From positions 1 to 64,000 of the forward strand of contig CAMWVA010000002.1 in the NCBI GenBank assembly GCA_947177575.1: DNA of 64,000 nucleotides, given 5' to 3'. Of this stretch, positions 11,101-64,000 are shown in pieces. The stretch comes from an uncultured Porphyromonadaceae bacterium. Its GTDB lineage: Bacteria; Bacteroidota; Bacteroidia; Bacteroidales; Muribaculaceae. Position numbers and translations under genes: made by a program. The stretch's first letter is position 1. The number at the start of each line of letters is the position of its first letter. The notes beneath the pieces are model-generated. The model was not told where the DNA came from and did not search any database. It saw only the letters and a program-made list of their open reading frames with translations.

Positions 11101-12804
11101 AAGTGATTGGAAGAGGCTGAATTCCTCCTGACTCGGAACCATTTCGAAAGGAAGTGGCATAGCATTGCCGAGCAGCAGGCTGAGTGATGCAGGCTCCGAA
11201 GTATGACCGTTAGCTGAAGCTGTCACACCTATATTAAGACGGCTAAGGTCACGGTCAGTGTTAAGACGGAACGAACATTCGGTAAGAGGAGTATCGTTAA
11301 GTTTGACACCGTTCTCAAATACGTCATAAGTCACAGCAGCTGTATCGACGAAACCGTTATTCACGCCTTTGTCACCTACAGGTTCCCATGTCAGCAGACC
11401 GTTATCAGCTCTAAGCATTGAAGGCGTACGGGGAGTGTCATTACCTAAGCAGAGAGTTGATTTGCGTACAGGACTCGATTTATCACCTATTTTAGCGATA
11501 AGAACAGTTTCATGCACACCTTCGGTACCTTCATACGCAAAAGTATGGCTTTCGCCTACAGGCACCTCGGACTCAAATACTTTATTACCGTCAACTTCAA
11601 ATACCATACGTACCTGCTGCTGTTCTATAGGCAGACGTCCGTAAGTCTGGTCGGGAGCGGTAATAGTTATATTGCCTGTCAGTGAAGCACCGGCAAAATC
11701 GAAAACAGCCTCAGCCGGCATAGCAGGAGCTTCAAGTTCGGCATAAGGGTCGGTACAACACAACAAAGAGAAATAAGGATTATCAGGATAGAGAGCGGAA
11801 CTTTCGGTAACGCTGTATGTCTCGTCATCAATAAAGAGAAGCTTTATCGATTCGGTAAATTCATCGGGATAGCAGGCTACAAATGAACGGTCAAGAGGAC
11901 TATAAGTCATGGCCGTGGCTGTCTGATAACGTACAAGGGTGTAATCTTCATCAACAGTACCCATTTCTATCAGAGAATCAGTAGCCTGATCAATAGTATA
12001 GACCTGATTATAGTAATCAAATACGTAAACCTGTGCGTCAGCAGGGTTATAGACTATAGAACCAAGAAAGTTGTTGCGCGACAGAAGGCCATGCTGCTGA
12101 ACAGCAAAGCCGTCGGACGGATCAATGGTAGCATAAAGACCGAACGAATAAGTTGACTGGTCAAGTGACAGGATGTGGAACATATCCTTGTCAGGATCGT
12201 ACGTCATACTGTAGGCGTAAGCGGCATAATCTTCACCAAAATAGATAGGTGTAAGCTCATCGCCTGTGGCAATGTCGACACGACGCCAGATGATATTTTC
12301 TACCTGTGCGCCCTCAACAATAGAGGTAAGTATGTCAGCAATATAGAGTATGCCATCGCGTATAGCACCGCCCTGAATATCGAAATTCTGTGCATCAGCC
12401 AGATAAGAACCGCTAAACATGTTCTCTACCTTTCCCGACGCCGGATCTATCTCACCCCAATAAGACTGTGAACTGGACTGTATGCCTCTGAATGAAGCGA
12501 CAACGCCACAGAGCGAACCACGTGGCTGGGCAACAGGAAGTCCCATAGGTGATTTTGAGGAATGACGTACGCGCATCAGGCCGCTTTCAGGACTACCGGG
12601 AATATTTGAAAGCTGAGTAACACCTGAAGCAGCCCGCAGACGTTGCGGTAAGGTGTGGACAGGGCGACCGACCGCCTCAGTCGTCACCGAGGCAGTTCGG
12701 GTGGAAGTAGCGACACGAGAATGTGCCTGCACATCGGTAGTCAGCAAAGCGCACAGAAGTGTACCGCTAAGACTCCAACCCACAAAATTGAAAAATTGTC
12801 TCAT
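8104..12804 (-). CDS. Giant secreted adhesin-like protein, tandem paralog of the 3587-8053 gene
   Basis: Domain-by-domain similarity to the neighbour (e.g. ASDWLVSPEVAGGTEVTFWMGSISVDYTEYIEVW); start taken at MRQFFNFVGWSLSGTLLCALLTT (12804) because this begins a signal peptide. Confidence 0.75.
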   Translation of the reverse strand: MRQFFNFVGWSLSGTLLCALLTTDVQAHSRVATSTRTASVTTEAVGRPVHTLPQRLRAASGVTQLSNIPGSPESGLMRVRHSSKSPMGLPVAQPRGSLCGVVASFRGIQSSSQSYWGEIDPASGKVENMFSGSYLADAQNFDIQGGAIRDGILYIADILTSIVEGAQVENIIWRRVDIATGDELTPIYFGEDYAAYAYSMTYDPDKDMFHILSLDQSTYSFGLYATIDPSDGFAVQQHGLLSRNNFLGSIVYNPADAQVYVFDYYNQVYTIDQATDSLIEMGTVDEDYTLVRYQTATAMTYSPLDRSFVACYPDEFTESIKLLFIDDETYSVTESSALYPDNPYFSLLCCTDPYAELEAPAMPAEAVFDFAGASLTGNITITAPDQTYGRLPIEQQQVRMVFEVDGNKVFESEVPVGESHTFAYEGTEGVHETVLIAKIGDKSSPVRKSTLCLGNDTPRTPSMLRADNGLLTWEPVGDKGVNNGFVDTAAVTYDVFENGVKLNDTPLTECSFRLNTDRDLSRLNIGVTASANGHTSEPASLSLLLGNAMPLPFEMVPSQEEFSLFQSLDVNGDNVKFGYGRNMDTGDYYVGIDLSRTSSADDWLFLPLLAFDKPETLYNLSFSYSNFSPYEATENLSVYIGRTADPQSMTQLIYSGQNLYEPSPITISRRFALPEAGDYYIGFHCTSRNSYGVRVGNFRVESLEGYSTQAPATPEVSAKAAPAGALRADVTIKAPVLDLAGKALDADDMITYTVTCGEATSKLDLLPGASGEVSVDVPASGYNTFSVIGTNSKGEGISTGHSLYVGVDRPLAPRNIRYSTSADNMTITMTWDKPEPVGENGGYVDVDNLEYRIYVVEGVAYNHVGTTRECSYSYTVPTAPQHQYHIGPAAVNEIGESRYSLFTRETLGTPNPIPLVENFSSNGFAYNPVSYTMSGEFINSSVESIASLLSMGTGVATDFNSGGLVIFNTGDVPTKAELVFPKVTTSASQKTGFKLRWLDWKYTPSLSLWGRRYGAETLVKIADFEAERPERGTWKEDIVVLSDGFDDASWAEFRIHADLSTELNEYGFIDAYELLQNVENDLKVASVTGVTEATVGDKVNFQIRVINAGLEVINGELTTTVTDAAGNVLLSETDNIRRLQSNREYLKNVSFDIQAEYLANAPLTVTATVEADEDDVPENNTLFARLEIKAHEAPVVTDLTAERTVSGTVDLAWSEPDLTFGGEDGFEMAEPFVVADYIGQWRNIDFDGRTCWVVNGLEWPNNREPAAWMTIDAEALNIMGDARLAPHSGRQYLMARSCEYDEDTNEGMVQASDWLVSPEVAGGTEVTFWMGSISVDYTEYIEVWWSATEPEFDPYVPVTPDENGSVQTSSTNGSFKRLRTFSKSGDEDWEFVNFTLPAEARYFALRYASFDSFGAMIDDLVYTPARLFSWELAGYKVLRTVDGVQEIIADDVQGTSWTDNTPIDGAASYNIITTVLNNGFRKDGPRSNTASVGGALVDDLRALEGVYGVTGAIMAEGLEGQALAIYATDGKLMQYVRISSDRQSIPVQAGVYIVKAGNALAKVMVK

Positions 12805-13160
12805 GAGAAAAGAAAAAATAAGTTTTTTGGATGTGACTTCCCTATGAAGCCGGTTGGTTGAAAAAAAATGGTAAACAAAAACATACGGGACTTCCCGCTG
12901 CAAGTGGCGGAACGCACCTTTCCGCAAAGTTATATAAAAACTTGCTATATTGCAAGACACTTTATAAAGTAAATGACCGATTTAACACGTTTTAATAATA
13001 TTGTAATATACCCTACATGTAAAAGTAATATATCATTTAGCTGTCTTATACATGCCCTACCGGGGGAATGTTACCGAAAGGATAAGTAAAGAGTGTGATT
13101 ATATGGGAGGGAATGTGTAATTTTGCATTCTGAAACGATACACACATCTGTACATCTGAT

Positions 13161-47882: not shown

Positions 47883-49292
47883 ATGAACGAAGTTCAACAT
47901 CTATTAGACCTGTCATCTTATATAGTATGCCACTATCAAGAGCTTTTTAATATTTTTAACATGAAACGAGTAGATGTAAAGATTAAAGGACTTTTAATCT
48001 CGCTTAATGGCCTTTCCATTAAATTGCGAGTTATTTCAAGTGTCCTGATGTTTCTTACCACATATTTATGTATTAATGCTGAAAGTCTTACTACTCACTA
48101 TATTGTTGCTTTTGACCGTTCAGTAGAACTTTACCAATCAGACTACATAAACCCAAGAATTTTACATATTCTGAATCGTCTTCTTAAAGATAATAATTAT
48201 AATAGTGAGCAGGATTATGTCTCAATGATAGGTTATTCAATTGAGATGAGTAACCCTTCAATTGAGCGTTTTACTCGTCCCTATCGTAATGTCAACGGGG
48301 AGGAAATGATATGGAAAAAGATTAATGACACAAACTTGTCGTCTTTGTTTCCGACTTGGCCTAAGGGTCAACCTATTCTTGATCCAAATGCTCTTCCGTC
48401 AGCTTCACTTCAGTCTCTTTCCAAGCCTTATGCCGTAATGGAAACAAGTATTAACAAGGATTCTGTTATGAACGCAGACCGGACAATTTTACTTGTAGTT
48501 TCTGACGATGTAGTCAACGGCACGGATGATAATTATGCTCAGGAATGGAATCGTGTAGCGACTACTTCAACAAATTATCATAGATTTAATGAGCTTAGGA
48601 AGAATGTCTTTTCTACTATGGAAAAATTTAATGAAGAGTTTAAATTTATTCATATAGGATTAAAGTACGGTAATTCCACACGTGATAATATTTCAATTTC
48701 AGAAGATGGTATATATAAAATAACTCCTTATGAAGTTGTATCGGCTGAGCGTCCTTCTATTCATTCAGTAACTGATTTTCCGGTTCCGTTGCCTCTTCAG
48801 AGGGTACGTGGTGGTTTCCGACTAAATATTGAAACCGGTTCGCTGAATACGAAATATCTAATACGTGATATTTCTATCAGTAATGCAGACGGGAAACAGT
48901 TAGGCGTTTCAAACGATGGTGTTTTTGATATTGAGCTTAAGTCAGAAGATGTTACTCCCGGAGACACACTTAATATAGCGATGTCGCTATTCTTAAAAGA
49001 TGGGCTTTATAACGCAAGCATCATTTCAGCTGATAATCCAAGATATAGCGACGGTATGCGTATCCGGCAGGTAATTCGTCTTCAGGAAGAAACCAAAGTA
49101 CTTGGTCTGGTACCACTTAGTGACAGTTTTTGGTGGTGGTACCCAGATGATATTTTTACTGCTGTGATGATATGGGATCTTATTATTCTTATATGCTTAA
49201 TAGGGTTTGTAGCTTTTATTCTCTACCGGTGGTTTATCAAAATAATTACTTATATTCCTGAAAATAAAAATCTCAAGATAACAAAAATCTGA
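47883..49292 (+). CDS. Membrane-tethered vWA-like protein (operon gene 1; alternative start 47961)
   Basis: Signal/TM near N-terminus, THYIVAFDRSVELYQ (degenerate MIDAS), C-terminal TM AVMIWDLIILICLIGFVAFILYRW. Confidence 0.65.
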   Translation: MNEVQHLLDLSSYIVCHYQELFNIFNMKRVDVKIKGLLISLNGLSIKLRVISSVLMFLTTYLCINAESLTTHYIVAFDRSVELYQSDYINPRILHILNRLLKDNNYNSEQDYVSMIGYSIEMSNPSIERFTRPYRNVNGEEMIWKKINDTNLSSLFPTWPKGQPILDPNALPSASLQSLSKPYAVMETSINKDSVMNADRTILLVVSDDVVNGTDDNYAQEWNRVATTSTNYHRFNELRKNVFSTMEKFNEEFKFIHIGLKYGNSTRDNISISEDGIYKITPYEVVSAERPSIHSVTDFPVPLPLQRVRGGFRLNIETGSLNTKYLIRDISISNADGKQLGVSNDGVFDIELKSEDVTPGDTLNIAMSLFLKDGLYNASIISADNPRYSDGMRIRQVIRLQEETKVLGLVPLSDSFWWWYPDDIFTAVMIWDLIILICLIGFVAFILYRWFIKIITYIPENKNLKITKI

Positions 49293-49295
49293 TCC

Positions 49296-52200
49296 ATGCA
49301 AGTCAATATAAATCTTAACAATCGTCCACAGGCCGACAAGATTAATGTCGATCTGCAGTGGAACCTTGAAGTACTTGAACAGAAAAAAGGTCCATTATCT
49401 AAATTATTTAATAAATATACACGTATAAAGCGTACTGTACGTCTGGATATTGTTGATATTAAGGTACCAGAGGAAGTAGTTTGCAATCGTGATAATCTGT
49501 TTTCTATACTTTATAAAGAACAAATATTTGAACAGCAAGACTTTCCGGTCTCTATGGTTATTGAAAGTATGGAAACACCTTTCCAGCTTCTTTTCCATCA
49601 GAGCGAGATTAAAGACTGTAAACGTCAGCAAAACAAGAATCCTCGTTCCTACCGTATCTCATTTACAGTTCGTCTTCTTGAAGAAAATAGAGATACAGTC
49701 ATAACTTCTGAAAAAGGTGAGGTGGATATTGTTTTTGAACCACTTAATCTTCAACCTAATTTTATCATAGATCTTGAAAATGAGGATATACAGTATTCTT
49801 CCCGACTTAAGCGTACTAAAGTCGGTACATTTGTTGCATGGCTTGATGAAGCCTTTCTCTTTACACCGGATCAACATGTAAAAATTAACCTTAGTCTTTT
49901 TGAAAAAGACAGGGAATTAAGAAATTTAATTTCTTTTGAGAACGGAGAGCAGAGTGAAACCATAACTCTTGTTGGTGGAAGAAATAATTTACATCGTCTT
50001 CCGATATATGTAGATTTTACTGAGATTCCCAATCCTGTCCTTGATTCTGAAGATTTTACTATCAAAGCTACTATAGAATTATCTCCAGCTTATAGTCCTG
50101 AAGTCAAAGAGACTATCCTTAAGCAAGAGGTATTTCATCTTCTTAAAGATCAGCAAGGAACCGAACTCAAAACTTATGTTGGTTTCGGAGAAGATGTTCC
50201 ATCTGTCTATGACCGTACTCATTCAGCACCGGAGGTCAGAATGCACTTCGTTCCACGTAGCCCTCTGACAGGTCAAGCAACTATTATATTACGTAACATA
50301 GCTACAGACAATACCAATCCAAGAGCAGGTCTTCATATCAATAACCTAATGCTGAATGAGCAGGTTATTGACGATATAAAAATTGTAGGCGAAGACAATC
50401 ATCTGCTTGACAGTTTTATCACTATCGATGGTGCCGGGCTTGACAGAATGAATAGTTCTGCAGGTCTGTTTATACCTAATGGAGAAGATGCCGAAACAAG
50501 ACTTACAATGACTTTCGACCCTTCCAGAATTGTAGATATACTTAATACTACAAGTTATGATTTTAGTATTAAGGCTGAGCTTTCCTTTGACTATTGGGAG
50601 GATCGTAATGGAACAGGTATTCTTGATGAAGAGAATAAAAGAACTATGAGAATTCCTATCAAATGGAATCTTCACCTCGACCCTAACAAGGAATGGCTCT
50701 GTGTTGATTACGGTTCCTCAGCCATTGTGTGTCTATACGATAAAGAAATCATTGACCTTCATGACGCCAAAAACCGAATCTTCCGTCTTACGAAGTTTAG
50801 TGATGATACTTTCGAAAAGGGTACTAAGTTCCTTTCATCTGATATAGTTTTCCATACAGTTTCCGATTCTAAGGATTCAACTCTCAGTCAGCAGTTAAAT
50901 TCGGAAAAGGCTATTGAAGAATTTAAGAAACTTAATCTGTCAGTATGTCTGTCACCAACCTCAAGTCTTGTTGCTTATGATGTAAATACGCAGTTACCAT
51001 GTCTGAAAATACTTGTCGGTAACAAATATCTTCCGGATAGCAGACACTTTACTGATTTTAAATATACTCGTCGTGATAGTAACGGGCATGTTGGTAGTAT
51101 ACTTGCAAAAGATGCGAAAACTCGTGATGAAGATACATGTTTGTTAAAAATCAATACAATCTTTAGTGAAGCATATTCAGAACTTTTCAAGTTTTTCATT
51201 CTTCCCAAGAGTAAGGATCGTAATATTAATAAACTTATTCTTACCTATCCCAATACTTATACACCTGCTCATCTTAAGGCATTGGAAAAGATTGTGATGA
51301 ATACTTTCCCAAAGATTAGACCGGGATATCTGAGATTTGTAAGTGAATCTGATGCAGTCGCTTCCTATTATCTCCAGAATCTTGAAAGACTTAATCCTGC
51401 TTCCAGTGTTCGTGCTACGGAAACTGTGTTAGTATTTGATATGGGTGCCGGAACTCTTGACCTGACATTATTCAGAAAAAAAATAAATGGTGAAGGTCGT
51501 ATTGAGGTTGATATCCTTGGCAAAATAGGTACAGGTAGGGCAGGTAATTATTTAGACTATCTGATAGCTGAGATACTAAAAGATAAATATCCGACTTTAA
51601 TTAAGGATAAACATACTGTTTCTACCAGGTCGGTACTCCAGATGTCCACTCAGTATGAACGATTGGGACTCAAACAGCTTATTAAAGATGAAATAAAGCC
51701 TAATCTGCTTGCTAATACGGATATTAATATCACTCTCCCCCTTAATACTGATCCGGTACCAACCACTATGAAAATTGCTGCTGATGAGATTCTGGAGGAC
51801 TCACGTTTTAAAGAATTTCTTAATAATATCTCTTTTAATCTTATCAAACGCCTACTTGCGTATGTTAATGAGCCGAACCTTAAGATAGATACCTTACTTC
51901 TCTCGGGTAGAAGCTGTCGTATGAAGGCTATTCGGAATGCACTTCTTACTTCTTTTCAGCGAATGGGATTTAACATTACCCCTCTGATGTTTAGTGGAGG
52001 TACAGACCGTACTTATGCAGATCGTGAGAAGACTGTTGTAGTTGATGGTGCTGTAATCAGAGCGACTGTATTCAGTGCCAAGGATTCTCCGGTAATAATG
52101 CGCTCTCGTCGTCTCTATGCATCTTATGGATTAGTTTATGAAAAACTTGGCGGCAAGTATACTTATGTGGAACTTCTCAATGGTTCTGATACTCCTTTTG

Positions 52201-52538
52201 TAACAGACTACACCAATCTTACAGATTTTGTCGGTGAATCAAAGATAGCTAAAGGAACAGGGGCAGCTCAGACTATAAAACTGGTACAGACCTACCTTTC
52301 TCCTGAGAATACTGAAAAGGCGTATAACGATGGAGATATGGAGTTTATCTCTGATATGGAAGAATTCGAGATGTCTAATTTCGAACATGCTGACAGCCTT
52401 AATGTAAAACTCAAACTGGATTATAGAAATAATATCCAGCTTTATGTGAACGGTATGGTTACTAAAGGCCGTGCGCCTCGTGGTGTCGATCTTGAGAGCG
52501 AAATCACAAAGAAAAGTATCTGGCCTGTTACTATCTAA
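49296..52538 (+). CDS. Divergent Hsp70/actin-fold ATPase with long N-terminal extension (operon gene 2)
   Basis: WLCVDYGSSAIVCLYD (phosphate-1-like), VLVFDMGAGTLDLTLF (phosphate-2), LLLSGRSCRMKAIRNALL (adenosine-like). Confidence 0.75.
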   Translation: MQVNINLNNRPQADKINVDLQWNLEVLEQKKGPLSKLFNKYTRIKRTVRLDIVDIKVPEEVVCNRDNLFSILYKEQIFEQQDFPVSMVIESMETPFQLLFHQSEIKDCKRQQNKNPRSYRISFTVRLLEENRDTVITSEKGEVDIVFEPLNLQPNFIIDLENEDIQYSSRLKRTKVGTFVAWLDEAFLFTPDQHVKINLSLFEKDRELRNLISFENGEQSETITLVGGRNNLHRLPIYVDFTEIPNPVLDSEDFTIKATIELSPAYSPEVKETILKQEVFHLLKDQQGTELKTYVGFGEDVPSVYDRTHSAPEVRMHFVPRSPLTGQATIILRNIATDNTNPRAGLHINNLMLNEQVIDDIKIVGEDNHLLDSFITIDGAGLDRMNSSAGLFIPNGEDAETRLTMTFDPSRIVDILNTTSYDFSIKAELSFDYWEDRNGTGILDEENKRTMRIPIKWNLHLDPNKEWLCVDYGSSAIVCLYDKEIIDLHDAKNRIFRLTKFSDDTFEKGTKFLSSDIVFHTVSDSKDSTLSQQLNSEKAIEEFKKLNLSVCLSPTSSLVAYDVNTQLPCLKILVGNKYLPDSRHFTDFKYTRRDSNGHVGSILAKDAKTRDEDTCLLKINTIFSEAYSELFKFFILPKSKDRNINKLILTYPNTYTPAHLKALEKIVMNTFPKIRPGYLRFVSESDAVASYYLQNLERLNPASSVRATETVLVFDMGAGTLDLTLFRKKINGEGRIEVDILGKIGTGRAGNYLDYLIAEILKDKYPTLIKDKHTVSTRSVLQMSTQYERLGLKQLIKDEIKPNLLANTDINITLPLNTDPVPTTMKIAADEILEDSRFKEFLNNISFNLIKRLLAYVNEPNLKIDTLLLSGRSCRMKAIRNALLTSFQRMGFNITPLMFSGGTDRTYADREKTVVVDGAVIRATVFSAKDSPVIMRSRRLYASYGLVYEKLGGKYTYVELLNGSDTPFVTDYTNLTDFVGESKIAKGTGAAQTIKLVQTYLSPENTEKAYNDGDMEFISDMEEFEMSNFEHADSLNVKLKLDYRNNIQLYVNGMVTKGRAPRGVDLESEITKKSIWPVTI

Positions 52539-52556: not shown

Positions 52557-55370
52557 ATGAAATATCTAAGTCAAAAGATTAAATATCTTTTTCTCTGTAC
52601 TATATCAGTGCTGAGCTTACTCGGTGTGTCATTTCAGGTAATGGCTGACCAGCTTTATCTTAATGTAGAAACCGGAAAGGTAAGTCTCCTTAGGAACAAT
52701 AAGCAGACATATTGGTCTTTGTCAAAAGAAAAAAATTCTTTTAAAACTTTAAAAGATTCTACTAAGGTAACAATTAGCAATATTAGACGATCTGATGAAT
52801 TGGAAGAAAAAGACAGAATCGTTATTATTGATGATTTTACCAATAAAGAAGTCTTTGCAGATTCAATGCAAAGTTATTTGTCAGAAAGTAACTTAAAAGG
52901 CAGGAATGTTAAGCTTCCTACTAACACAAATTATACTATAAAGCATGGAAGCAATGTATGGAACATGGCATTTATTGACCCAATCATCATCAAACAAAAG
53001 CAAGAAATTCAGAATCTCGAAAAAGAAATTAAAAAATTAAAAAAAGAAGAAGTATCTAATTCCAACCCTATAACAGAAAATCCTTCTTCAAATTCTCAAT
53101 GGGAAATCCTATGTATGGTTGGTATAGGTATCTTACTGCTATTTGCTATAATAGATACTTTTCTTTGGTTCAAAGGAAAGAAAAGAGTTCATGGTAAAAC
53201 TATAAAAAAGGAATCTGAATCATCAGAGGATAAAGGACCTGACAACACTCCAAAACAAATAGAAGAAAGCACTCCAACAGGAGATATTTCTACCAGTCAG
53301 AATGAGAGTCATTCTTCGCAAAAAGAAAATAAACCTCAGGAAGACGAAATCGAACAACCAAGGCGTAATCAAAAAGAGTTATTCCAACTGTTCGGTATGG
53401 ATGATAGTGTGGTAAATCCAAACAAAACTGAAATTATACCTTCTATTAATGGTTCTCCTTCGGAAAAATATGATACAAGTATAATAGAAGACTTTGCCAA
53501 AAAAATTATTCGTAGAATAAAAGGTAAGGATAAAAAAGAACTTAAATCTTTACTTAAAAAAGCCGAAGAAGATACAAGAGGACAGTCTTATGAAGCTACG
53601 CTTTATAAATTTATAGATCTATTAGCAGCTCATAATTTCTCTGAAAGGGAAACAATCAGTGGAAGTAGTAATAAAATAAATCCAGCTCAACTGTCATTAG
53701 ATATAAATAAGACAGTATTAAGAGACTGGCTGCTTAAGCGTCTTAAAAGTTATAACATTTTTGAAGATGTAAGTCAGTCTGCTGATATGAATACCATATT
53801 CGGTATGATTGTTGACAATTGGGAAAAGAGTAGTTCTATCCCTGTATATACAGATGAAGAAATAGTTTCAAATGCTGTTAGAGAAGGAAAACTTTCAGAA
53901 GAAGATAAGAAACTTCTTACAAGTCAGCTTATCCACCGATTGAACAACATTCTTTCCGATACAGAGAAATTCGATAGGACCCTTAGCTCTGAAGATTTCC
54001 TGACAGAAATCGCCAATATTGTTAGAGCTAATAATAATAGGCCTGAACTTCCGACGGACATTGTTGAGGCAAGAGAACAAGGACGTAAAGAAGTACTCAC
54101 CATATTTAAAGAGGCAATTCCTGATATGAAATGGGATCTCATAACTATAGATAAGAAAACTCTTGAACAAACTTTTGAGCGTGTAATGCTTTTCCGTCTT
54201 AATGATAAATTAGGATTAGACACCTCAAATCTCGAAGAGGCTTATGATATACTTCGGCATAGTTGTAAAAATGATAAGATATTTACAGCCCTGCTTGCTG
54301 AATATGGTGCAGAAGATAATAAAGAGTTAATTAAGCTAATAGGTACCAAGCAGCTTGAAGATACCCGTAAGACATTTGCCGGACGGGTGGTAAATATTGT
54401 ATCTGAAGAAAACATATCTTCTCTTAACAAGTTATTTACAGCTTTAATAAATCTTATTAAGGATTTGAAAGATACACATACACTTGTTATTAATGAACTA
54501 AGTGATAATATCAGGAAACTTGATCCCGCTTTCACTTTGACAACTAATGATGCATGTGACCTAACGGATATTTACAGCCGCCTTGTAAGTGAGAAACTGA
54601 AAAAAGCAGAGAATAATATTTCTGAACTTAATGATAAAGTTGAAAATCTTAAACAAAAGCTTTCTTATGCAGACGACAAGATTTCCAACTTAAAAACTAA
54701 AGTTAATACACTTGAGAAAGATAAGAAAGAATTGATGTCAGAATCTTCCTATCTGCTTAACAGCCTGCATGAAGGTGCTCGGAAGATTGCAACTTCATGG
54801 CGCCCTGTTCTTATGGCTACTTCACTTGATTATGATGCTGAATGTAAGGAAATCAATGATGACCTTGAAGAAGCCCTCAGAGAAGTATGTGAACGTATGG
54901 CTGCATTTACTGTACCGATTGAAACAACTGTACCGATTGAAACACGCAAACAGATTCAGCAGTTATTATGCGATGAGTTTGTTAAGCATGGAAGTATTCT
55001 GAACAAACTTTGTTGTTACTATGCTTATAGTCGTCTGCCATTTATGACTGATAAGGCACTTCCGAATGGTATTATCTTCCATCGACAGGCTATTTCCAAT
55101 CTTTTCAATATGATTGACGAACTTTATGCATACTTTGGTATCCGGCTTGATATACCTTTGCTTTTCGTAGCAAGTATAGAAGAAGGCAATTTTGAAAATG
55201 TTACCGGCCGTGCCTATGGAGATCTTGACAATCTTCATCCCAATTCACGAAATCATAAAGATAATATTGACTCCAATTCAAAACCGACTGAATTGGTAGT
55301 CGATGTCGTTGAGATAGGTTATACTGTTGATGGTGTCGAAAGGCGTAAATCTAAAGTAATAACATACTAA
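52557..55370 (+). CDS. Signal peptide - extracytoplasmic domain - TM - long coiled-coil protein (operon gene 3)
   Basis: N-terminal signal, TM WEILCMVGIGILLLFAIIDTFLWF, coiled coil KKAENNISELNDKVENLKQKLSYADDKISNLKTKVNTLEKDKKEL. Confidence 0.7.
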   Translation: MKYLSQKIKYLFLCTISVLSLLGVSFQVMADQLYLNVETGKVSLLRNNKQTYWSLSKEKNSFKTLKDSTKVTISNIRRSDELEEKDRIVIIDDFTNKEVFADSMQSYLSESNLKGRNVKLPTNTNYTIKHGSNVWNMAFIDPIIIKQKQEIQNLEKEIKKLKKEEVSNSNPITENPSSNSQWEILCMVGIGILLLFAIIDTFLWFKGKKRVHGKTIKKESESSEDKGPDNTPKQIEESTPTGDISTSQNESHSSQKENKPQEDEIEQPRRNQKELFQLFGMDDSVVNPNKTEIIPSINGSPSEKYDTSIIEDFAKKIIRRIKGKDKKELKSLLKKAEEDTRGQSYEATLYKFIDLLAAHNFSERETISGSSNKINPAQLSLDINKTVLRDWLLKRLKSYNIFEDVSQSADMNTIFGMIVDNWEKSSSIPVYTDEEIVSNAVREGKLSEEDKKLLTSQLIHRLNNILSDTEKFDRTLSSEDFLTEIANIVRANNNRPELPTDIVEAREQGRKEVLTIFKEAIPDMKWDLITIDKKTLEQTFERVMLFRLNDKLGLDTSNLEEAYDILRHSCKNDKIFTALLAEYGAEDNKELIKLIGTKQLEDTRKTFAGRVVNIVSEENISSLNKLFTALINLIKDLKDTHTLVINELSDNIRKLDPAFTLTTNDACDLTDIYSRLVSEKLKKAENNISELNDKVENLKQKLSYADDKISNLKTKVNTLEKDKKELMSESSYLLNSLHEGARKIATSWRPVLMATSLDYDAECKEINDDLEEALREVCERMAAFTVPIETTVPIETRKQIQQLLCDEFVKHGSILNKLCCYYAYSRLPFMTDKALPNGIIFHRQAISNLFNMIDELYAYFGIRLDIPLLFVASIEEGNFENVTGRAYGDLDNLHPNSRNHKDNIDSNSKPTELVVDVVEIGYTVDGVERRKSKVITY

Positions 55371-55380
55371 AATTACAATC

Positions 55381-56574
55381 ATGAAAAAGTGGATTATAGG
55401 ATTGGTATTATTAGTAATTGTAGGATATATTATTAAAATAATAATAGATCCACCTGTCGAAGTTTGGACTGATAATAAGGTCTATGCAGGTTATCAATCT
55501 ACTACTGTCAATGAGACGGCAACAGCACCAGCTGCCGCTGAGGTGTATATAGATGCCTCAGGCAGTATGAAGCCGTATTTTATGGCAGATGACAATGTAA
55601 TGACTCACCTGTTGGGAACTCTTCAGACTCTTACGCCCAATACCTCAGTCTATTTTCTTGATAATCCTAAGACTTATAAGGGTGAGCCCGGAGAAATTTT
55701 GAAAAAAGAGGATCAGCCGAATCTGTCAGCAACTACTTTTCATAGTTTCTTCTCGAAAGCTGCAGCACAGATTGATACTACTGACGTGATAGTGTACTTA
55801 ATCACTGATGGTATTATGAGTATAGGTAATCGTGGAGATACAAGAAGTGCTTTGACATATCTCAAAGGTAAGATAACAGAGGCTCTGCAGAATCATTCAG
55901 ATCTTGCAGGCGCTATACTGAGGTATTCCGGTGGCTATAAGGGTACTTACTGGAATATGAAGAATAAGCCCATAACCTTATCTAAGCAGATACAACGTCC
56001 TTTCTACGTTATAGCCCTCGGACGTAAAGCAGCCATACGCTGGCTTGAAGACATCAATGATAAGAAACTAGCTGAGTTAAAAAATCCGACTTCGATTTAT
56101 TTCGGTGTACATGATTTTAAAGCTCACAATGATGCTAAAATGTCTGCCGATACACTTTTACCGCTTCAGAATCCCGGTGATGAAGTGACATTGGTACTTA
56201 ATCTACCGCAATGCCTGAACAATCTTGATGTAAATAAAGTGGAAGTAGTACATAACGGCGCTGCTCTCACGGACATACGTCCTGACGGAACCACACAAAA
56301 AGTTAAGGCTGAGAAAGAAGCTAATGGTACACTTAGAGTTTTTGCTCATAATGCTCCCTTCGTTCCGAATGTCAATGGAGAGTATGTAGTAACTATCTAC
56401 TCATTGAATACTATACCTGACAGCTGGGTTTCTACATGGAGTAACGACAACGATGAGGAAGGTCCTGATGAAATCACTACTTTTGGTCTCTCCTACCTCG
56501 TCGAAGGCATTAAAAACGGTCTTGAGCCGCAGGATACGCTGTTTCGTGCCGACATGGTTTTCCTTCCTAAATAA
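55381..56574 (+). CDS. Signal-anchored vWA domain protein (operon gene 4)
   Basis: N-terminal TM IIGLVLLVIVGYIIKIII; EVYIDASGSMKPYF MIDAS; VIVYLITDGIMSIG. Confidence 0.85.
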   Translation: MKKWIIGLVLLVIVGYIIKIIIDPPVEVWTDNKVYAGYQSTTVNETATAPAAAEVYIDASGSMKPYFMADDNVMTHLLGTLQTLTPNTSVYFLDNPKTYKGEPGEILKKEDQPNLSATTFHSFFSKAAAQIDTTDVIVYLITDGIMSIGNRGDTRSALTYLKGKITEALQNHSDLAGAILRYSGGYKGTYWNMKNKPITLSKQIQRPFYVIALGRKAAIRWLEDINDKKLAELKNPTSIYFGVHDFKAHNDAKMSADTLLPLQNPGDEVTLVLNLPQCLNNLDVNKVEVVHNGAALTDIRPDGTTQKVKAEKEANGTLRVFAHNAPFVPNVNGEYVVTIYSLNTIPDSWVSTWSNDNDEEGPDEITTFGLSYLVEGIKNGLEPQDTLFRADMVFLPK

Positions 56575-56596: not shown

Positions 56597-57145
56597 ATGG
56601 ATTTTATTTATTTCACAGTCACCGGTTCAAAATCATGGACCCCTGACTATCATGCGAATTTTTTCATTACCGAAGGCGGTTTTGCCTGGGGTATAGCAGG
56701 AGCAGTTATCATAGCCGTTATTTGTGCTTGTATCTTTTACTTCGGCTTCTGCAATAACAAGGATTCTGTCAAGGGAGCCTCTGTTACTGTCTGGGGTATA
56801 GTGCTTGTGGTAAGCGGTCTGCTTGGATATTTCTATGCCGATATGATATTGATCGGTGAGTCTAACGCCCGAGACAACAACGGTCTGTTTCGTACGCACT
56901 CATTCTATAAAGCCAATGAGGATTATTATATAGCCAAGACCAAAACAGGGGTATCACCTGCTATGGCTGGAGGGCTCGCTGCAAAAAAAGAAAAGATTAA
57001 GACAAATCTGGACAAAGGTAAAGATGTACGTTTCGATTTTGATCTTACTACTGGGCTGTTTACAGTGCTGATTTATTTTATTGTCAGCATTATCATAAAA
57101 CGTTTCAGCCGAAACGGCAGGGCAATTCCTTTCCAGAATCCATAA
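56597..57145 (+). CDS. Multi-TM small membrane protein (operon gene 5)
   Basis: Three hydrophobic segments; start at MDFIYFTVTGSK (56597), ORF-track extension overlaps the previous gene. Confidence 0.7.
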   Translation: MDFIYFTVTGSKSWTPDYHANFFITEGGFAWGIAGAVIIAVICACIFYFGFCNNKDSVKGASVTVWGIVLVVSGLLGYFYADMILIGESNARDNNGLFRTHSFYKANEDYYIAKTKTGVSPAMAGGLAAKKEKIKTNLDKGKDVRFDFDLTTGLFTVLIYFIVSIIIKRFSRNGRAIPFQNP

Positions 57146-57157
57146 TACCTCTGAAAG

Positions 57158-58777
57158 ATGAAGAAAAAGTTATTTATATTTGCCATAGGAGGCACTGGTG
57201 AGCGTGTACTGCGTTCGCTAACAATGCTGTTTGCTGCGGGAGTAGAGTCTCTGAGCAATTATGATGTTTATCCTATAATTATAGACTATGATCTGAAGAA
57301 TGCTGATAAGCAGCGTACAGTGGAGCTACTCCGCAATTACAAAAAAATACACAATGCCGCTTTTATGGCTCACGGAGAATTAGGCTCACAGGATAGACAA
57401 TTTTTTGCTGCTGATTTACACAGTGTAGACGGCCTGGAGGATTATATTTTTCCATTCAAACCTGCGCAGGATAATATCAAATTCAGAGATTATATAGGTT
57501 ATGGTAAATTTGCAGGTGATACTCTTCTTACCGAAGATTTGCTACGAAGTCTGTATGACGACTCACAACGTCCCGACACAGAACTTAATCTTGATATGAC
57601 AGTGGGCTTTAAGGGAAATCCCAATATAGGAAGTGTTGTATTCAATTCAATAGCTTCGACAGATGAATTCCGAAACTTCCTAAATCATTTTCAGCCCGAG
57701 CAAGAGGATAAGGTCGTTATTATAGGATCGCTGTTCGGTGGTACGGGTGCGGCAGGTATCCCGGAGATTACCAAAGCTATAAATGCTAAAAAAGAAGCTG
57801 CTGATATAGCTACGGTCCTGGTATTGCCTTATTTTTCACCTATGGAGCAAAAAGATGGTGCCATACGCGCTGACCGCTTCAACTCAAAGACAAAGGCGGC
57901 GCTGAGTTATTACAAAAATTCAGGTATTCTGAATCAGATAAATAGAGTTTACTACATAGGTGATCCACATCGTACTATTATTGCTTATAGTGAAGGCGGC
58001 GATACCCAAAAAAACAACGCCAATGTAGTCGAACTTATAGCGGCCATGATGATTGAGCACTTTGCAGCTAATCGCGGAGAAGTGGGACAAAAAGAGTATA
58101 AGTTTTCTATAGATGCTTCGATAACGGAAGACAATACACAGAAATCAGCCCAGCGTCTGTTTACTTATGATTTTGATCCTATATCTATTAATAAGGTCCT
58201 ACTGCCTCTTATAAGGCTTGCCATAGCTCTTAAGTTCTTTCATGAAAGTATATGGGGGAAAAAGACTTCCGGTCAGGACTTTCATAAGTACCTTAAACTT
58301 AACGATGCTATTGAGGTAAACGAAGCAAACGGTAATAAGAGTCGTCTAACTGTATTGTGTGCTACATTGGAAAAATTCTATAAACAATATCAGGGATGGC
58401 TTAAAGAACTGGATTTTGAAGGTGACGGAACCACTATTCCCGGCAATTCTCATCGTTTTGCTCTGACTGATATGAATAAACCTTATGCCGATCTTATTCT
58501 GCGTCCTGCTGCCACCGATAAAGAAGCTCAGGAACCCGGCTTTTGGCAAAGGCTTTCAAATCTGATAGGAAATTCCAATACTAAACCTGTCCTTACAGAT
58601 GATAATCTGATGAGTTGGATGAACGGTGAGTTTAGAGATAATGGCAATGGGAATGGTCATTATGACACTAAAAGAAATGCTGTACGCGAGGGTCATGAGC
58701 CGGAATACGTATTTGCCGATATCCTTTACAAGGCATCTGACAAAGGGTTACATAACCTGATATCTTCAACCAATTAA
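57158..58777 (+). CDS. Tubulin/FtsZ-like GTPase superfamily protein (operon gene 6)
   Basis: KLFIFAIGGTGERVLRSLTMLFAAG N-terminal loop; VVIIGSLFGGTGAAGIPEITKAI resembling the GGGTGTG tubulin signature. Confidence 0.75.
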   Translation: MKKKLFIFAIGGTGERVLRSLTMLFAAGVESLSNYDVYPIIIDYDLKNADKQRTVELLRNYKKIHNAAFMAHGELGSQDRQFFAADLHSVDGLEDYIFPFKPAQDNIKFRDYIGYGKFAGDTLLTEDLLRSLYDDSQRPDTELNLDMTVGFKGNPNIGSVVFNSIASTDEFRNFLNHFQPEQEDKVVIIGSLFGGTGAAGIPEITKAINAKKEAADIATVLVLPYFSPMEQKDGAIRADRFNSKTKAALSYYKNSGILNQINRVYYIGDPHRTIIAYSEGGDTQKNNANVVELIAAMMIEHFAANRGEVGQKEYKFSIDASITEDNTQKSAQRLFTYDFDPISINKVLLPLIRLAIALKFFHESIWGKKTSGQDFHKYLKLNDAIEVNEANGNKSRLTVLCATLEKFYKQYQGWLKELDFEGDGTTIPGNSHRFALTDMNKPYADLILRPAATDKEAQEPGFWQRLSNLIGNSNTKPVLTDDNLMSWMNGEFRDNGNGNGHYDTKRNAVREGHEPEYVFADILYKASDKGLHNLISSTN

Positions 58778-58787
58778 AATTAACAAT

Positions 58788-61700
58788 ATGCCTGATAATA
58801 TAAATGGGACTGATACCCAGGTAGCTGAGGCCATTAAGAGAAATTACTTTACCAATGAGAATCCTAACGCCGTTTATAATACAACCGGTATGCATGGTGT
58901 GGTAGGCGGTAGTGTGGATATATCGCAGATTGAAGACGGTGTAACCGAACGTGGCGTCGGATTAGGGAAACTTGGTTCATCAATGCCAACTCCCATGGCG
59001 CGACTGTTTCTCTTTGCCACAGCCTTCGAGCAAGTCAATAGTTTGCAGAGTAAAAACTCTCATCAAGGCCATATAGGCATACCTGACAATGAAGTGCGTC
59101 TTGTACCCACTCCCTATCATGACCTTGTCAGCGAAATGTTGGATATGCTGGAATTTACTTTTAAATATGGTGACCATCCTGATTTTCATGTGGAGCGTTG
59201 GGATATAGGCTTTGAGAAACAGAATCTTGACAGATCAGAAGTTGATGCACATAAAGATTTAGGAGTCGCACTTGAATCAGCCTTCAGTTTCGGTGCGCTT
59301 CAGAATCGTTTGCCGATATTTCTTTTCAAATGGAAAAATCATGTCATCGGAGGCACTTCACCTGTATCACTCGTCTATACCTCGGCCAATCTAAGGTCTG
59401 TTCTGAATAAAAACAGATTTAGTTTTAACGGTGATGCCGGCAATCCTCTTTTTACTGATCAGGCTACACCTCTTCATAAGCGTGACAAGGCTTTTCAATC
59501 ATATATATATAAACTCTATCTGAACTACCTGATAAATTCTCCTGTCTATCTTACAGGAGTAGCGCGTTATATACAGGACAGCGGTACCACTTATTCGCCT
59601 GGTATCTATAATGCTGCACGCCGTGCCCCGAATTTCGATGGTCTTCCTGAACTGAAGTCAAAAGAGAGTGGAGAGAGGGTAACGCTCGGTTCGATAACAT
59701 TTCGTCATTCCGATCATTCGGTAAAGATCGATAGGTCAACTACTGACTATCTTCTCGCACCTACTGCCACTCACTATGAAAAAGGAGAAGTAGGTAAAAA
59801 AATCCCTATGATACTCACTAAGTATGGTATTAACGGATTGAAATATGTAGGCGATAAGAATTGGTTGCCCGGTACCCATTCTATTCCTGGAGTACTGACT
59901 CCGAATATTTATGACCGTACGCTGCCCGGTTTCGAAAAAGTAAAGTATCCATATTTAACGGTTTCCGACTTTTTTGAGGATAAAATTATCGAGGTTAGCT
60001 ATGACATAAATCGTGAGCGTTTCTATACTGGATGTGATGATAATATCAATTTTCTGTTACCACTTAAAAAGATTTTCTTTGAATATTTCAAGTTATCGGA
60101 TCTTATTACCGAAAACGGACGCTTTACAGATATGCTTAAAGCGGAGTATGATGAAGAACATGAGAAGCTGATTCTAGAACTTACCCTACCTCTTGTACAC
60201 GGACGAAAAATCACTCTCACTAAGACTTATGATACCTCTGACCAGAGCAAGGATAAGGTAGATTGCTATGACTCGTCACATACCTTCGATTTCGCGGTAT
60301 TTCCTTTTTATCGTCTTGAACCGGACCGTGATCAGAATGTGTACAATATAATGTTAGGCAGCTCTTTTAACGGAGTGAGTCTGAAATTTTTTGAACTTCC
60401 CGTAATATCTAATCAGGGTGTTGAGGAAGTAACAGCAGTTGTAAAACGCAGATCCGAAAAAAGCCGTGATAAAGCTTTACTCTCTACTGACCATATACAT
60501 GTAGACGGGCCATTTAGTTTTATAGAGCTTACAATACAGGCTGAAAATGTCAGTGCTCTTGTCATTCCTATGTTTGATATTGTAAATTCCAATCCGACTA
60601 TTGTAACTAATAAGTACATTTTCGGGGTGGATTTCGGTACTACTAATACTCATGTAGCCTATTTTGTCGGACCTGTGGGAGTACCTATTGCCACAGCTGA
60701 TCCTTTTAGTTATAAAGAGGAGGACAGTCAGATGGTGATGTTCAACAGTAAGTCCGGAGCAGGAGAGTTTGTCACCTTCGTGACAGCAGCCAAGCGTGAG
60801 TTCGTACCCTTAACCATAGGCGAGACAATAAAATTCCCTATCAGGACCGCGACATTTCAGGCAGCCGGCAGGCCTAATACTCTGGAAATGTTCTTTAATA
60901 CCAATATAGGTTTTAATTATAGCGAGGATATATCGCGTGCAAGTGACTATAAGACTAATATCAAGTGGGATCGCTTTGATGGCCTTTCTCATCAGAGGAT
61001 GCAGACCTTCTTTACTCAGATGCTGTGGATGATGAAAAACAAGAGTGTTCTCAACGGTGCTACGGCTGATTTTACCGTGATAGTGACTTACCCACTGTCT
61101 ATACGTGACAGTGACAGAGCTATCTTTAAAGATGCTTGGCGACAGGCAGTGACAGAGGTAAAAGGGCATATTGACATCAGGTATCGTACCGAGAGTGTGG
61201 CCCCCTATTATTCTCATCTTGCGGAGATGAAGTATGGTGAAGCTTATGCTAATATAGATATAGGAGGTGGTACGACTGACATATTGTATGTTAATCCACA
61301 AAGTGGCGAAGCCTGTGTATTCTCAGCTTTCTTTGCTGCAGATGACCTGTGGAATGACGGACTCGACCGTAGTAATATGGGTAGAAAGAAGAACGGTTTT
61401 ATTACTTACTATAAGGAAACTCGTAGAGACCGGCTTGGAGACCGTATGACTGATGTGCAGAATATGATTGACAGTGCTTCTTCTTCGGCCGATATTATAA
61501 ATTATCTTTTTGCTAATGATTCGTGGACGAGACTATCAGAAACTATAAAGTTTTCACCACGTATGATTCAGTTGCCTGTAGTTCATTTCTCTGCTCTGAT
61601 GTTTTATATGGCTTATGCTATTCATCTGGCTGAATTTGAGGTGCCACATTATATATCGTTTACCGGTATGGGGTCCAAATATGTACAGTTAATCAGTACT

Positions 61701-62264
61701 CATCCTGATTCGGTTGCCAAGATAATCAAGGCTATTTTTCGCTATGTTGGAAATCTTTTTAATGATGATGAACTTAAGAAAGCAGATAATATAAAAGTGT
61801 CTTTCGTTGAAAAACCGAAAGAAGTAACTGCTGAAGGAGCTCTGATATCGCTTAACTATGGTAGTGAGGATGATGAAGAGGTAATTAATCCTAATCAGGA
61901 CACTTTCTATGGTTTTGAAGAAGAAGAGGTGTATAATAACACATCGTTGAGATATGGAAATCTGAATAACGATATACAGAGTAAAGTCATAAAGCTTTTC
62001 AAAAGTTTTCTTGATATGTTCGCTAAGGAAGATATTATAGATGCTTTAAGTGAAGTTGGACATGGCGTTGATAATGATATCATCACAAGATTACGTAATT
62101 GTGCAGATTCGAGTTATCGTCAGATGCAAAATTCCTCTAAGAAAGGCCAGCGAGATACTGATAAAGTTAAGGAACCGATGTTCTTCTGGCCTCTGAAGAA
62201 TTCATTATACGAGATAGGTAAAGAGATAGCAGAAGCAAGTATCAATAAATCAGGTGAAAAATGA
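58788..62264 (+). CDS. Protein with ~600-aa novel N-terminus and C-terminal Hsp70/actin-fold ATPase (operon gene 7)
   Basis: YIFGVDFGTTNTHVAYFVG (phosphate-1), AYANIDIGGGTTDILYV (phosphate-2), ISFTGMGSKYVQLI (adenosine). Confidence 0.8.
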   Translation: MPDNINGTDTQVAEAIKRNYFTNENPNAVYNTTGMHGVVGGSVDISQIEDGVTERGVGLGKLGSSMPTPMARLFLFATAFEQVNSLQSKNSHQGHIGIPDNEVRLVPTPYHDLVSEMLDMLEFTFKYGDHPDFHVERWDIGFEKQNLDRSEVDAHKDLGVALESAFSFGALQNRLPIFLFKWKNHVIGGTSPVSLVYTSANLRSVLNKNRFSFNGDAGNPLFTDQATPLHKRDKAFQSYIYKLYLNYLINSPVYLTGVARYIQDSGTTYSPGIYNAARRAPNFDGLPELKSKESGERVTLGSITFRHSDHSVKIDRSTTDYLLAPTATHYEKGEVGKKIPMILTKYGINGLKYVGDKNWLPGTHSIPGVLTPNIYDRTLPGFEKVKYPYLTVSDFFEDKIIEVSYDINRERFYTGCDDNINFLLPLKKIFFEYFKLSDLITENGRFTDMLKAEYDEEHEKLILELTLPLVHGRKITLTKTYDTSDQSKDKVDCYDSSHTFDFAVFPFYRLEPDRDQNVYNIMLGSSFNGVSLKFFELPVISNQGVEEVTAVVKRRSEKSRDKALLSTDHIHVDGPFSFIELTIQAENVSALVIPMFDIVNSNPTIVTNKYIFGVDFGTTNTHVAYFVGPVGVPIATADPFSYKEEDSQMVMFNSKSGAGEFVTFVTAAKREFVPLTIGETIKFPIRTATFQAAGRPNTLEMFFNTNIGFNYSEDISRASDYKTNIKWDRFDGLSHQRMQTFFTQMLWMMKNKSVLNGATADFTVIVTYPLSIRDSDRAIFKDAWRQAVTEVKGHIDIRYRTESVAPYYSHLAEMKYGEAYANIDIGGGTTDILYVNPQSGEACVFSAFFAADDLWNDGLDRSNMGRKKNGFITYYKETRRDRLGDRMTDVQNMIDSASSSADIINYLFANDSWTRLSETIKFSPRMIQLPVVHFSALMFYMAYAIHLAEFEVPHYISFTGMGSKYVQLISTHPDSVAKIIKAIFRYVGNLFNDDELKKADNIKVSFVEKPKEVTAEGALISLNYGSEDDEEVINPNQDTFYGFEEEEVYNNTSLRYGNLNNDIQSKVIKLFKSFLDMFAKEDIIDALSEVGHGVDNDIITRLRNCADSSYRQMQNSSKKGQRDTDKVKEPMFFWPLKNSLYEIGKEIAEASINKSGEK

Positions 62265-63100
62265 TCAGTATCACCGTTACCCAACAATCAGCAAACAATC
62301 GTGCTAAAGCTGTAGTTGCCGATAGTCCTTTAGCTTCTTCGCAGACCGAAACCGATACATTAGCTACTGTATCAAATACCGCAGTGCTAACCGATACAAC
62401 TTCTGTAACACAGACCACGCTTGCCACTCCACCTGAGAGTAAACAGGATGAAAGTGACAATACAGTTGCTTGGATTGGTGTGGGTGTGGGATTAGTAGTC
62501 GGTGTGATAGCGTGGAAGCTGATTTCAGACTTGAAGAAAAAGATTACTTTGCTTGCTAATAAGGTTGATAAGCTGACAGAAGAAAACCAGTTACTCAACG
62601 CCCATTTCAACGAGACTAATTATTCCCTGACCTCTCTTAACACTCGTCTGAGTAAAGTAGAAAGTACCACTTCTTACCTTCAAGATTTTTGGTATCAAAA
62701 TTCAATCTCGTCGAAAGTAAGTGAGTACGGCAACAGTAGTAACGAAAGAGAGCGGATATCATCACCTACGACACTGATCAGATATGCTACTTCACGGATG
62801 CCTGATGAATTGGGAGTATTACGCTTCTCGGAACGTTCGATGAGTGAGGAACCTTCGGAACAGAAAATGTTTATTTTGGAGTTGGATCCAGTTTCCGGTA
62901 CCGGGACTTATAAGATTAATCCCAAGGCTATGAATACCATACTTCAGGATCTTGATGTGTTCAAGAATTTTGTTAAACCGTTTTCTGTTACCGGGAATAT
63001 TACCGGTGCCACAGTTATTGATAAAGTTATTGGTAGAATTGTCAAGGACGGTCCGTATTGGGTAGTCGAGCAACCTCTTGAAATCACTTTAGTAAAATGA
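62261..63100 (+). CDS. TM plus short coiled-coil protein (operon gene 8)
   Basis: TM TVAWIGVGVGLVVGVIAWKLI; ITLLANKVDKLTEENQLLNAHF; ATGA overlap with gene 7. Confidence 0.65.
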   Translation: MISITVTQQSANNRAKAVVADSPLASSQTETDTLATVSNTAVLTDTTSVTQTTLATPPESKQDESDNTVAWIGVGVGLVVGVIAWKLISDLKKKITLLANKVDKLTEENQLLNAHFNETNYSLTSLNTRLSKVESTTSYLQDFWYQNSISSKVSEYGNSSNERERISSPTTLIRYATSRMPDELGVLRFSERSMSEEPSEQKMFILELDPVSGTGTYKINPKAMNTILQDLDVFKNFVKPFSVTGNITGATVIDKVIGRIVKDGPYWVVEQPLEITLVK

Positions 63101-63225: not shown

Positions 63226-63792
63226 ATGACAGACATAGATAATGTACGTATTCCTATAGATAGTGAGGAATTTGCCAATGCATGGCGTATAGTTTCAGAA
63301 GCATTGCTACAACATATTCAGAGAGGAGGCGTTTTCCCCTTTCCTCCTGGTCAACCTTCTTCTAAGCAAACTATTGCAGGACAGACTGGTGAACAGACGA
63401 AGGAACTTGTAGATATCCTACCTTCAGAACCTCCTAAAAAAAGTGAAAGAAAAATTGTAGGAAATTACTATGCTGTAGACCCTCTTACAAACAGCAATAG
63501 AGAATACATTTTTAAACGACGTGGACTCAAAGAAGATCAGGATTCCAATCATCTTTATCACGTAATCTGTTTTGATGATAATACTTTCGAATTTGAACTA
63601 ATTCCTACTCTTGAGAAGGAAGGAAGAGAGAATTTCAAAAATTCCACAAAGAGAGAGGAATTCATTTTAGTCAATGGTCAGATAACACCTGACTGTCCTA
63701 TAAAAATTATCCACAAAGGAAAAGGAATATTTGATGGCCGTTTTTATAAAATCACTGAACCTGTAGAAGTAGATTTAACAGGAACAGAATAA
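63226..63792 (+). CDS. Hypothetical cytoplasmic protein (operon gene 9)
   Basis: 188 aa, same strand, follows the MITE-like element. Confidence 0.6.
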   Translation: MTDIDNVRIPIDSEEFANAWRIVSEALLQHIQRGGVFPFPPGQPSSKQTIAGQTGEQTKELVDILPSEPPKKSERKIVGNYYAVDPLTNSNREYIFKRRGLKEDQDSNHLYHVICFDDNTFEFELIPTLEKEGRENFKNSTKREEFILVNGQITPDCPIKIIHKGKGIFDGRFYKITEPVEVDLTGTE

Positions 63793-63820: not shown

Positions 63821-64000
63821 ATGAAAAAAATACTTCTGATAGCCGGTATCATTGTAGTTGTCATTTTTTTCGTAAAGAAGTGTCGTAGTGGCGAAAACGG
63901 AATTGATACCAATGATACTTCCATAGCCGGGTACACCGGTACAGTAAGTGAGATCAACGGCAATGTATTGACTTTAGTTTCTGGCCTTAATGCGCGCCTG
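63821..64000 (+). CDS. Signal-anchored protein, truncated by window edge (operon gene 10)
   Basis: ATG at 63821: MKKILLIAGIIVVVIFFVKKCRSGENGIDTNDTSIAGYTGTVSEINGNVLTLVSG, open to the end. Confidence 0.6.
   Translation, partial: MKKILLIAGIIVVVIFFVKKCRSGENGIDTNDTSIAGYTGTVSEINGNVLTLVSGLNARL

Follow-up and report, generated by a model that had tools for sequence, protein, structure and literature searches.

The window, i.e. the whole 64-kb stretch of DNA analyzed here (64,000 nucleotides), is the start of a 75.8-kb contig in a draft genome of 3.2 Mb. A run of co-directional genes, all on the plus strand, begins at position 47883, extends past the window end and includes the gene of a tubulin-like protein (P0001; 57158..58777), a single open frame from ATG to stop that encodes 539 aa. 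The strand opposite this frame, read in register, contains stops throughout, and the gene is separated from its neighbours by 12 and 10 bases. Both stretches quoted in the initial annotation, AIGGTGERVLRS and GSLFGGTGAAGIPEI, were found in the protein as cited.

Gene content of the operon

The first gene of the window's subtype encodes a 469-aa protein with a C-terminal TM segment and no family match (47883..49292). It is followed by two accessory genes of this subtype, one for a second Hsp70/actin-like protein of 1080 aa (49296..52538), which matches the PADLOC candidate PDC-M61B (E = 1.9e-8), DnaK models (E ~1e-3) and Pfam HSP70 (E = 0.029), and the other for a 937-aa protein with a signal/TM segment and a long coiled coil (52557..55370). 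Between these and the tubulin-like gene are encoded a vWA-like protein of 397 aa (55381..56574), with an N-terminal membrane anchor and the motif DASGS at residue 58, and a small membrane protein of ~182 aa with three TM-like segments (56597..57145; the mechanical ORF start is 56453). Downstream come a giant actin/Hsp70-superfamily protein of 1158 aa (58788..62264), a one-TM coiled-coil protein of 279 aa (62261..63100), a homologous C-terminal domain of which is found in most loci, a 188-aa protein (63226..63792) related to the C-terminal part of the coiled-coil protein (own HMM, E = 3.8e-6), and a membrane-anchored trypsin-like protease of 356 aa (Trypsin_2, E = 6.8e-24), which starts in the window (63821..64000) and runs on to contig position 64888 (L002:888). 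TM-like segments are present in the upstream vWA-like and small membrane proteins and in the downstream coiled-coil protein; none was found in the tubulin-like protein or in the actin/Hsp70-like protein that follows it. A staphylococcal-nuclease-like N-terminus of the protease, suspected by eye, was dropped because there was no Pfam match.

The anchored protein is putatively assigned to the vWA family by motif only, because neither Pfam, which yielded no vWA match, nor a PDB profile search, which retrieved integrin alpha-E alone (E = 0.66-0.78), confirms the assignment. A DxSxS-type motif was detected in 71 of the 81 vWA-like proteins, with an expression that also allowed E and with some matches elsewhere in the protein; 47 of the 81 make up the vWA-like alignment (A8). 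No P-loop GTPase family was matched among the operon proteins scanned, and the window's operon contains neither partition genes nor MotA/MotB-like (ZorA/ZorB) motor genes.

Two large M48 metallopeptidase genes (one with DUF2167, the other with Sel1 repeats) are located after the operon (L002:2728-5625 and L002:8652-11822), as is a SocA/Panacea antitoxin-like gene with a small partner (L002:5981-8199; E = 1.6e-20), beside which lies a gene resembling, by eye, an HTH plus ImmA/IrrE-type protein. Elsewhere in the window, adjacent genes at 3587-8053 and 8104-12960 encode paralogous, secreted-looking giant proteins of 1488 and 1618 aa.

Membership in the tubulin superfamily

The alignment of the tubulin-like family (A2, 65 rows) comprises the window protein and homologues from 64 of the 82 loci described below, near-duplicates and two fragments having been dropped. 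Residues G11, G12, G14, R16, D43, G150, F151, G153, P155 and G158, as well as S191, F193-G197, G200 and P202, are invariant in the 65 sequences, and because these columns are invariant the tubulin-like signature is not a chance resemblance. The loops can be followed in the columns of all 65 homologues: T1 (residues 10-17) reads GG[TS]GxR, T2 (D43-D45) DxD, T3 (150-158) GFxGxPxxG, which we take to resemble GAGANPEVG of FtsZ, T4 (191-202) SxFGGTG[AS][AS]GxP and T5 (P224-F226) PY[FY]; T6 (265-269) contains D269, and the columns of H7 (290-303) are Q284, N286 and E292. The T4 signature GGGTG[TS]G is not matched, the GGTG core being kept with the first G replaced by F (FGGTG[AS][AS]G in 65/65). The initial annotation had pointed to FGGTGAAG in place of GGGTGTG as an unusual feature; the variant is indeed present, but as an oddity of the window protein it was rejected, being fixed in all 65 aligned relatives.

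In FtsZ, the T7 catalytic loop after H7 has the motif GxxNxD. Among the 65 aligned homologues, no conserved motif of this type was found at 304-321; residue 301 is D in 45 of the 65 and H or K in the others, with H in the window protein. We infer that the protein binds GTP; hydrolysis is uncertain because the T7 motif is absent.

In Pfam searches, 63 of the 65 aligned members matched Tubulin_2 (E ≤ 0.1; best 1.3e-9) and 62 matched Tubulin (E ≤ 0.1; best 3.1e-9). For the window protein, searches of Pfam, NCBIfam and PADLOC returned sub-threshold matches only, with 17.4 bits for Tubulin_2 (PF13809; cut-off 27) and 17.6 bits for Tubulin (cut-off 33).

An AF2 model built from the 65-row alignment has a pLDDT of 87.9 and a pTM of 0.91. 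All 50 Foldseek matches listed are FtsZ, tubulin, CetZ or PhuZ structures (best E = 6e-5); their TM-scores are low, as the match is limited to a single domain of the model. VIA-align gave Z = 17.6 for CetZ (3zid; 206 residues, rmsd 3.8 A), 17.3 for FtsZ and 17.0 for tubulin. The matching part is the GTPase domain, up to about residue 340 (the VIA alignments end near 350), whereas the C-terminal part (341-539) is helical, without a strand of at least 3 residues. The tubulin/FtsZ-type layout proposed from the sequence is thereby borne out in the GTPase-domain fold and in loops T1-T6, but no canonical tubulin C-terminal domain was seen in the full-length model, so that the outcome which the initial annotation had named as refuting, a fold without this domain and without T-loops, is realized by half. 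Taken together, the alignment and the model indicate that the protein is a divergent GTPase-domain member of the tubulin superfamily, and probably neither FtsZ nor tubulin. Formation of FtsZ-style filaments is doubtful because neither a canonical C-terminal domain nor a T7 motif was seen.

The same genome separately encodes a canonical FtsZ (G000:C39:14619; E = 1.9e-44), so that identity with the division FtsZ was rejected and the earlier suggestion of a non-division tubulin is supported. At 539 aa, the tubulin-like protein is also longer than this FtsZ (open frame of 464 aa), as had been claimed of FtsZ in general.

The actin/Hsp70-like partner

The 1158-aa protein encoded next to the tubulin-like gene has a long N-terminal extension and an ATPase fold at residues 608-1030. 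In its AF2 model (pLDDT 85.3, pTM 0.70), the best Foldseek matches are MreB (E = 1.7e-9) and DnaK (E = 2.1e-9), and the VIA Z scores are 14.5 for the DnaK NBD, 13.9 for MreB and 13.7 for MamK. The motifs are D615-GTTNT, D824-IGGGTTD and G960-x-G962; Asp615, Asp824, Asp831, Gly960 and Gly962 are invariant in all 50 sequences of the partner alignment (A3), which comprises the window protein and 49 loci out of the 79 that have the gene. The phosphate-1, phosphate-2 and adenosine motifs all being present, the partner is predicted, from the model and the motif columns, to be an actin/Hsp70-fold ATPase.

Conservation and distribution of the gene pair

Among 82 loci labelled by simple HMM matching, i.e. 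the best 80 of 465 confirmed relatives on genome contigs plus two contigs from a viral collection, 79 have an actin-like gene adjoining the tubulin-like gene and 77 have a vWA-like gene (motif-based) upstream; 73 received the label for the small TM protein and 69 that for the coiled-coil protein. The vWA-like, small TM, tubulin-like and actin-like genes occur together in 72. Most label misses are due to cut contigs or faulty ORF calling: the small-TM label is missing in 9 loci, and L051, L062, L084, L092 and L110 look like faults of the simple ORF caller. True solo tubulins, without an actin-like partner, were found at three loci (L061, L086 and L095). Beside the solo tubulin of L061 is a gene of the membrane-stress family PspA/IM30 (L061:6703-7425; PF04012, E = 1.5e-19), and L095 carries a gene of the same PspA/IM30 cluster.

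In a survey of 297 genomes of the family, the tubulin-like gene was detected in 82, the actin-like gene in 68 and both in 67; the 15 tubulin-only genomes largely represent a distant class, whose actin-like partner was missed by the single-protein search and found by a profile (L147-L149). In a sample of the phylum, 15 of 395 genomes had tubulin-like matches. Plasmids of the Cyanobacteria Gloeothece and [Synechococcus] sp. NIES-970 have the same gene order as the Bacteroidota loci, with DxSxS-type, DFGTS and DIGGGTSD motifs in the encoded proteins, the vWA-like gene of the Gloeothece plasmid being on the opposite strand.

The flanks differ between lineages. In six Pontibacter loci, the tubulins are 91-97% identical and a flank gene is common to 1 of 15 pairs, whereas the Larkinella and Fibrella loci have most of their flanks in common; therefore, the unit is mobile in some lineages and settled in others. 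The flanks of the module are conserved in Spirosomataceae. One tubulin-like gene (L142; G686:C38:42249-43727) is broken by seven in-frame stops, so that the system decays in some genomes.

A scan of viral contigs with the single tubulin-like protein found no relative, and a scan with alignment A1 found two (L112 and L113); a search of phage records with the tubulin-like protein of L081 gave no match. The near-identical L112 and L113, from the viral-contig collection, carry the module together with MotA/MotB-like genes and a non-specific DNA/RNA endonuclease (PF01223, E = 7e-48).

Accessory modules and flanking genes

Of the 73 loci whose downstream sequence spans 8 kb or more (from the same best 80 of 465 relatives and two viral-collection contigs), 34 have both MotA- and MotB-like genes and 9 have the window-type Hsp70-like gene, with no locus having both. 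On a quick-method tree of 85 tubulin rows, the accessory state requires 6 changes, and the tree shows one clade with the motor and one without; the window's subtype is marked by the second Hsp70-like ATPase and the anchored trypsin-like protease.

All 21 MotB-like proteins aligned (A5; 21 of 34 matches) match ZorB models (best 4.6e-17), and their best PDB profile match is ZorB (8vvn, E = 4.7e-12, vs 0.0066 for MotB 6ykp). Asp14, within FWxxxxDxMT, is invariant in these proteins, and we take it to correspond to the MotB proton site. The evidence for the MotA-like proteins is weaker: of the 29 aligned (A4; 29 of 37 matches), 10 match MotA_ExbB and several match ZorA (best 5.7e-9), and the PDB profile search gave no motor match. 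Among the flank genes of 20 loci (113 genes, 31 families), the 25 families listed do not include ZorC, ZorD or ZorE. The distant homologue L139 is accompanied by genes of the MotA-like and vWA-like types and by one that looks MotB-like by eye, and L141, at 1615 aa of the size of FtsZl1, adjoins vWA- and MotA-like genes. The distant class (~30% identical) is further characterized by a 1300-aa actin-like partner, another protein of 480-660 aa and TerD paralogues, which follow the tubulin-actin pair in L137, L147 and L148 (L148:1945-2565 vs TerD 3ibz, E = 5.3e-16).

For the defence-island analysis, the 113 flank genes of 20 loci that remained after removal of core and labelled accessory genes were compared with 118 control genes, drawn from 20-kb regions chosen arbitrarily in these genomes, with at most 6 genes from each. 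Specific PADLOC matches amounted to a handful among the flank genes (a few candidates of the PDC series and one type I methyltransferase) and to three or so among the control genes, and the commonest flank match, mad2 (9 genes), comes from a generic model that matches 20-43 times in each genome. With so few matches in 113 flank and 118 control genes, enrichment of defence genes beside the tubulin-actin loci is not supported.

Comparison with known systems

FtsZl1, as presented in the main text of the 2010 paper (PMC2875224), has vWA, GTPase and OmpA-family neighbours and was proposed to act in membrane remodelling. In the terms of that text, FtsZl1/Tubulin_2 proteins and the present family share a divergent GTPase domain of the FtsZ/tubulin type, in which T1 and T4 are present and which aligns poorly past H5. 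Both also have a C-terminal part that is helical, a vWA gene (here motif-based) and membrane-protein genes in their operons, coexistence with a normal FtsZ and a patchy spread. However, the window protein does not reach the Pfam cut-off, T4 reads FGGTG[AS][AS]G rather than GGGTG[ST]G, and FtsZl1, with its extended coiled coil and helical C-terminus, has ~1000 aa compared to 539 aa, with a helical C-terminal part, in the window protein. Neither an actin/Hsp70 partner nor a proton channel, MotA, MotB, TolQ or phage is named in the main text, where 'actin' occurs in other senses only (PMC2875224). Against the background of FtsZl1-like systems, what is new is the pairing with an actin-like protein and the link to ZorAB.

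Tubulin/HSP70 conflict systems centred on GTPases, for which regulated NTP-dependent assemblies were proposed, are described in passages of Kaur et al. 2020 (PMC7159879). The GAP1-N2 systems described there are similar in having a tubulin domain with a helical/coiled-coil C-terminus, vWA and TM parts, HSP70-type ATPases and trypsin; TRAFAC GTPases with GAP1, in Firmicutes and Actinobacteria, are their own features, and tubulin and HSP70 are separate themes in them, whereas the systems described here, in Bacteroidota and Cyanobacteria, have tubulin and actin/Hsp70 genes as neighbours and no TRAFAC/GAP1 core in the operon proteins scanned.

The likeness to Zorya (PMC11890865) lies in the motor of one clade: a ZorB-like protein with an invariant membrane Asp and an OmpA-type domain, and a ZorA-like MotA core with a long coiled tail. 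Unlike Zorya, these loci have tubulin-, actin- and vWA-like genes as obligate company and showed no ZorC/D/E in the genes scanned; the window's clade lacks the motor, and Zorya was rejected as the identity of the window's operon because there are no motor genes. The TerD paralogues, which recall TerD-type stress/conflict operons, stand beside the distant tubulin-actin class and are absent from the window's subtype. Searches of the open-licence PMC literature turned up no publication that describes a tubulin-actin gene pair together with a ZorAB-like motor.

Discussion

The folds and motifs, the conserved gene order and the swapping of modules are direct results of the computation. The role of the protein, which the initial annotation had left as unknown, is narrowed by the operon context. 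The reading that we tentatively prefer, and consider plausible without being confident of it, is a membrane-associated, nucleotide-switched machine of two NTPases that serves in envelope stress or conflict and has swappable output modules. Its core would consist of the anchored vWA-like protein, the small TM protein, the tubulin-like GTPase, the giant actin/Hsp70-like ATPase and the TM coiled-coil protein. The two cytosolic NTPases would most likely form a nucleotide-gated hetero-complex beneath the inner membrane, tethered to the envelope by the TM and coiled-coil proteins and by the anchored vWA-like one. When the envelope is hit, by an entering phage or by another membrane stress, nucleotide turnover would follow and switch the output modules: in the motor clade a ZorAB-like ion motor, and in the window's clade the second Hsp70-like ATPase with the anchored trypsin-like protease. 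GTP binding and hydrolysis by this machine, as well as its complex, localization, trigger and stress or conflict role, are what we infer from its parts. Both NTPase folds, the adjacency and co-occurrence of the pair, the plasmid copies, the patchy spread, the mobility in Pontibacter, the ZorB/ZorA-like partners, the TerD genes and the ideas on NTP-dependent assemblies in passages of Kaur et al. (PMC7159879) count in favour of this reading. The motor-less window operon, the motif-only vWA assignment, the lack of T7 and the unsupportive defence-island test count against it, as do the conserved flanks in Spirosomataceae, which fit vertical, housekeeping-like inheritance; because of that test, the preferred reading rests on composition and distribution.

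The same Spirosomataceae flanks favour a membrane-remodelling or cytoskeletal machine of normal physiology, in which the tubulin-like protein would polymerize non-canonically and, with the actin-like protein, shape or organize the inner membrane. This explanation, possible but somewhat unlikely in our judgement, agrees with the reading of FtsZl1 in the main text of Makarova & Koonin 2010 (PMC2875224), with the adjacency of two cytoskeletal superfamilies and with the three solo tubulin loci, where PspA/IM30 is next in L061 and a gene of the same cluster is present in L095; however, the patchy presence, the plasmid copies and the swapping of protease/nuclease and motor modules speak against it, as does the protein itself, in which neither a canonical C-terminal domain nor a conserved T7 was seen. 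The ZorB/ZorA-like partners in 34 of the 73 loci (among the best-80-of-465 set) would instead fit an anti-phage system working like Zorya, with the tubulin/actin pair as infection sensor and gate and the motor or the protease/nuclease as effector. The trypsin-like protease or Endonuclease_NS (L112, E = 7e-48) next in line, the two loci from the viral-contig collection and the PDC-M61B match of the second Hsp70-like protein are compatible with such a system, but the lack of ZorC/ZorD/ZorE in the scanned genes, the unsupportive flank test and the absence of the motor from the window's subtype make it distinctly unlikely. A diverged FtsZ paralogue for cell division or for plasmid or chromosome segregation (TubZ-like) would account for the GTPase fold, with CetZ and FtsZ as the best VIA matches, and for the occurrence on cyanobacterial plasmids; given the canonical FtsZ elsewhere in the genome, the lack of the tubulin-like gene in most relatives and the lack of partition genes in the operon, we regard it as very improbable.

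Beyond the preferred two-NTPase machine, a bolder proposal, which we rate as unlikely but worth stating, is that the tubulin-fold GTPase and the actin/Hsp70-fold ATPase are obligate partners in a categorically new machine, in which a partner surface missing from the tubulin-like protein, perhaps along with the missing catalytic loop, would come from the actin-like one, and the two together would gate interchangeable envelope effectors, including a Zorya-type ion motor. Cultured hosts of the system are available (Hymenobacter, Pontibacter, Spirosoma and Prevotella lacticifex). If a two-NTPase machine is indeed at work, NTPases of the tubulin and actin superfamilies would act as a single unit not in eukaryotes but in bacteria, in a role other than division, and FtsZl1, long unexplained since 2010, would gain a defined partner and a tie to the 5:2 ion motors of Zorya.
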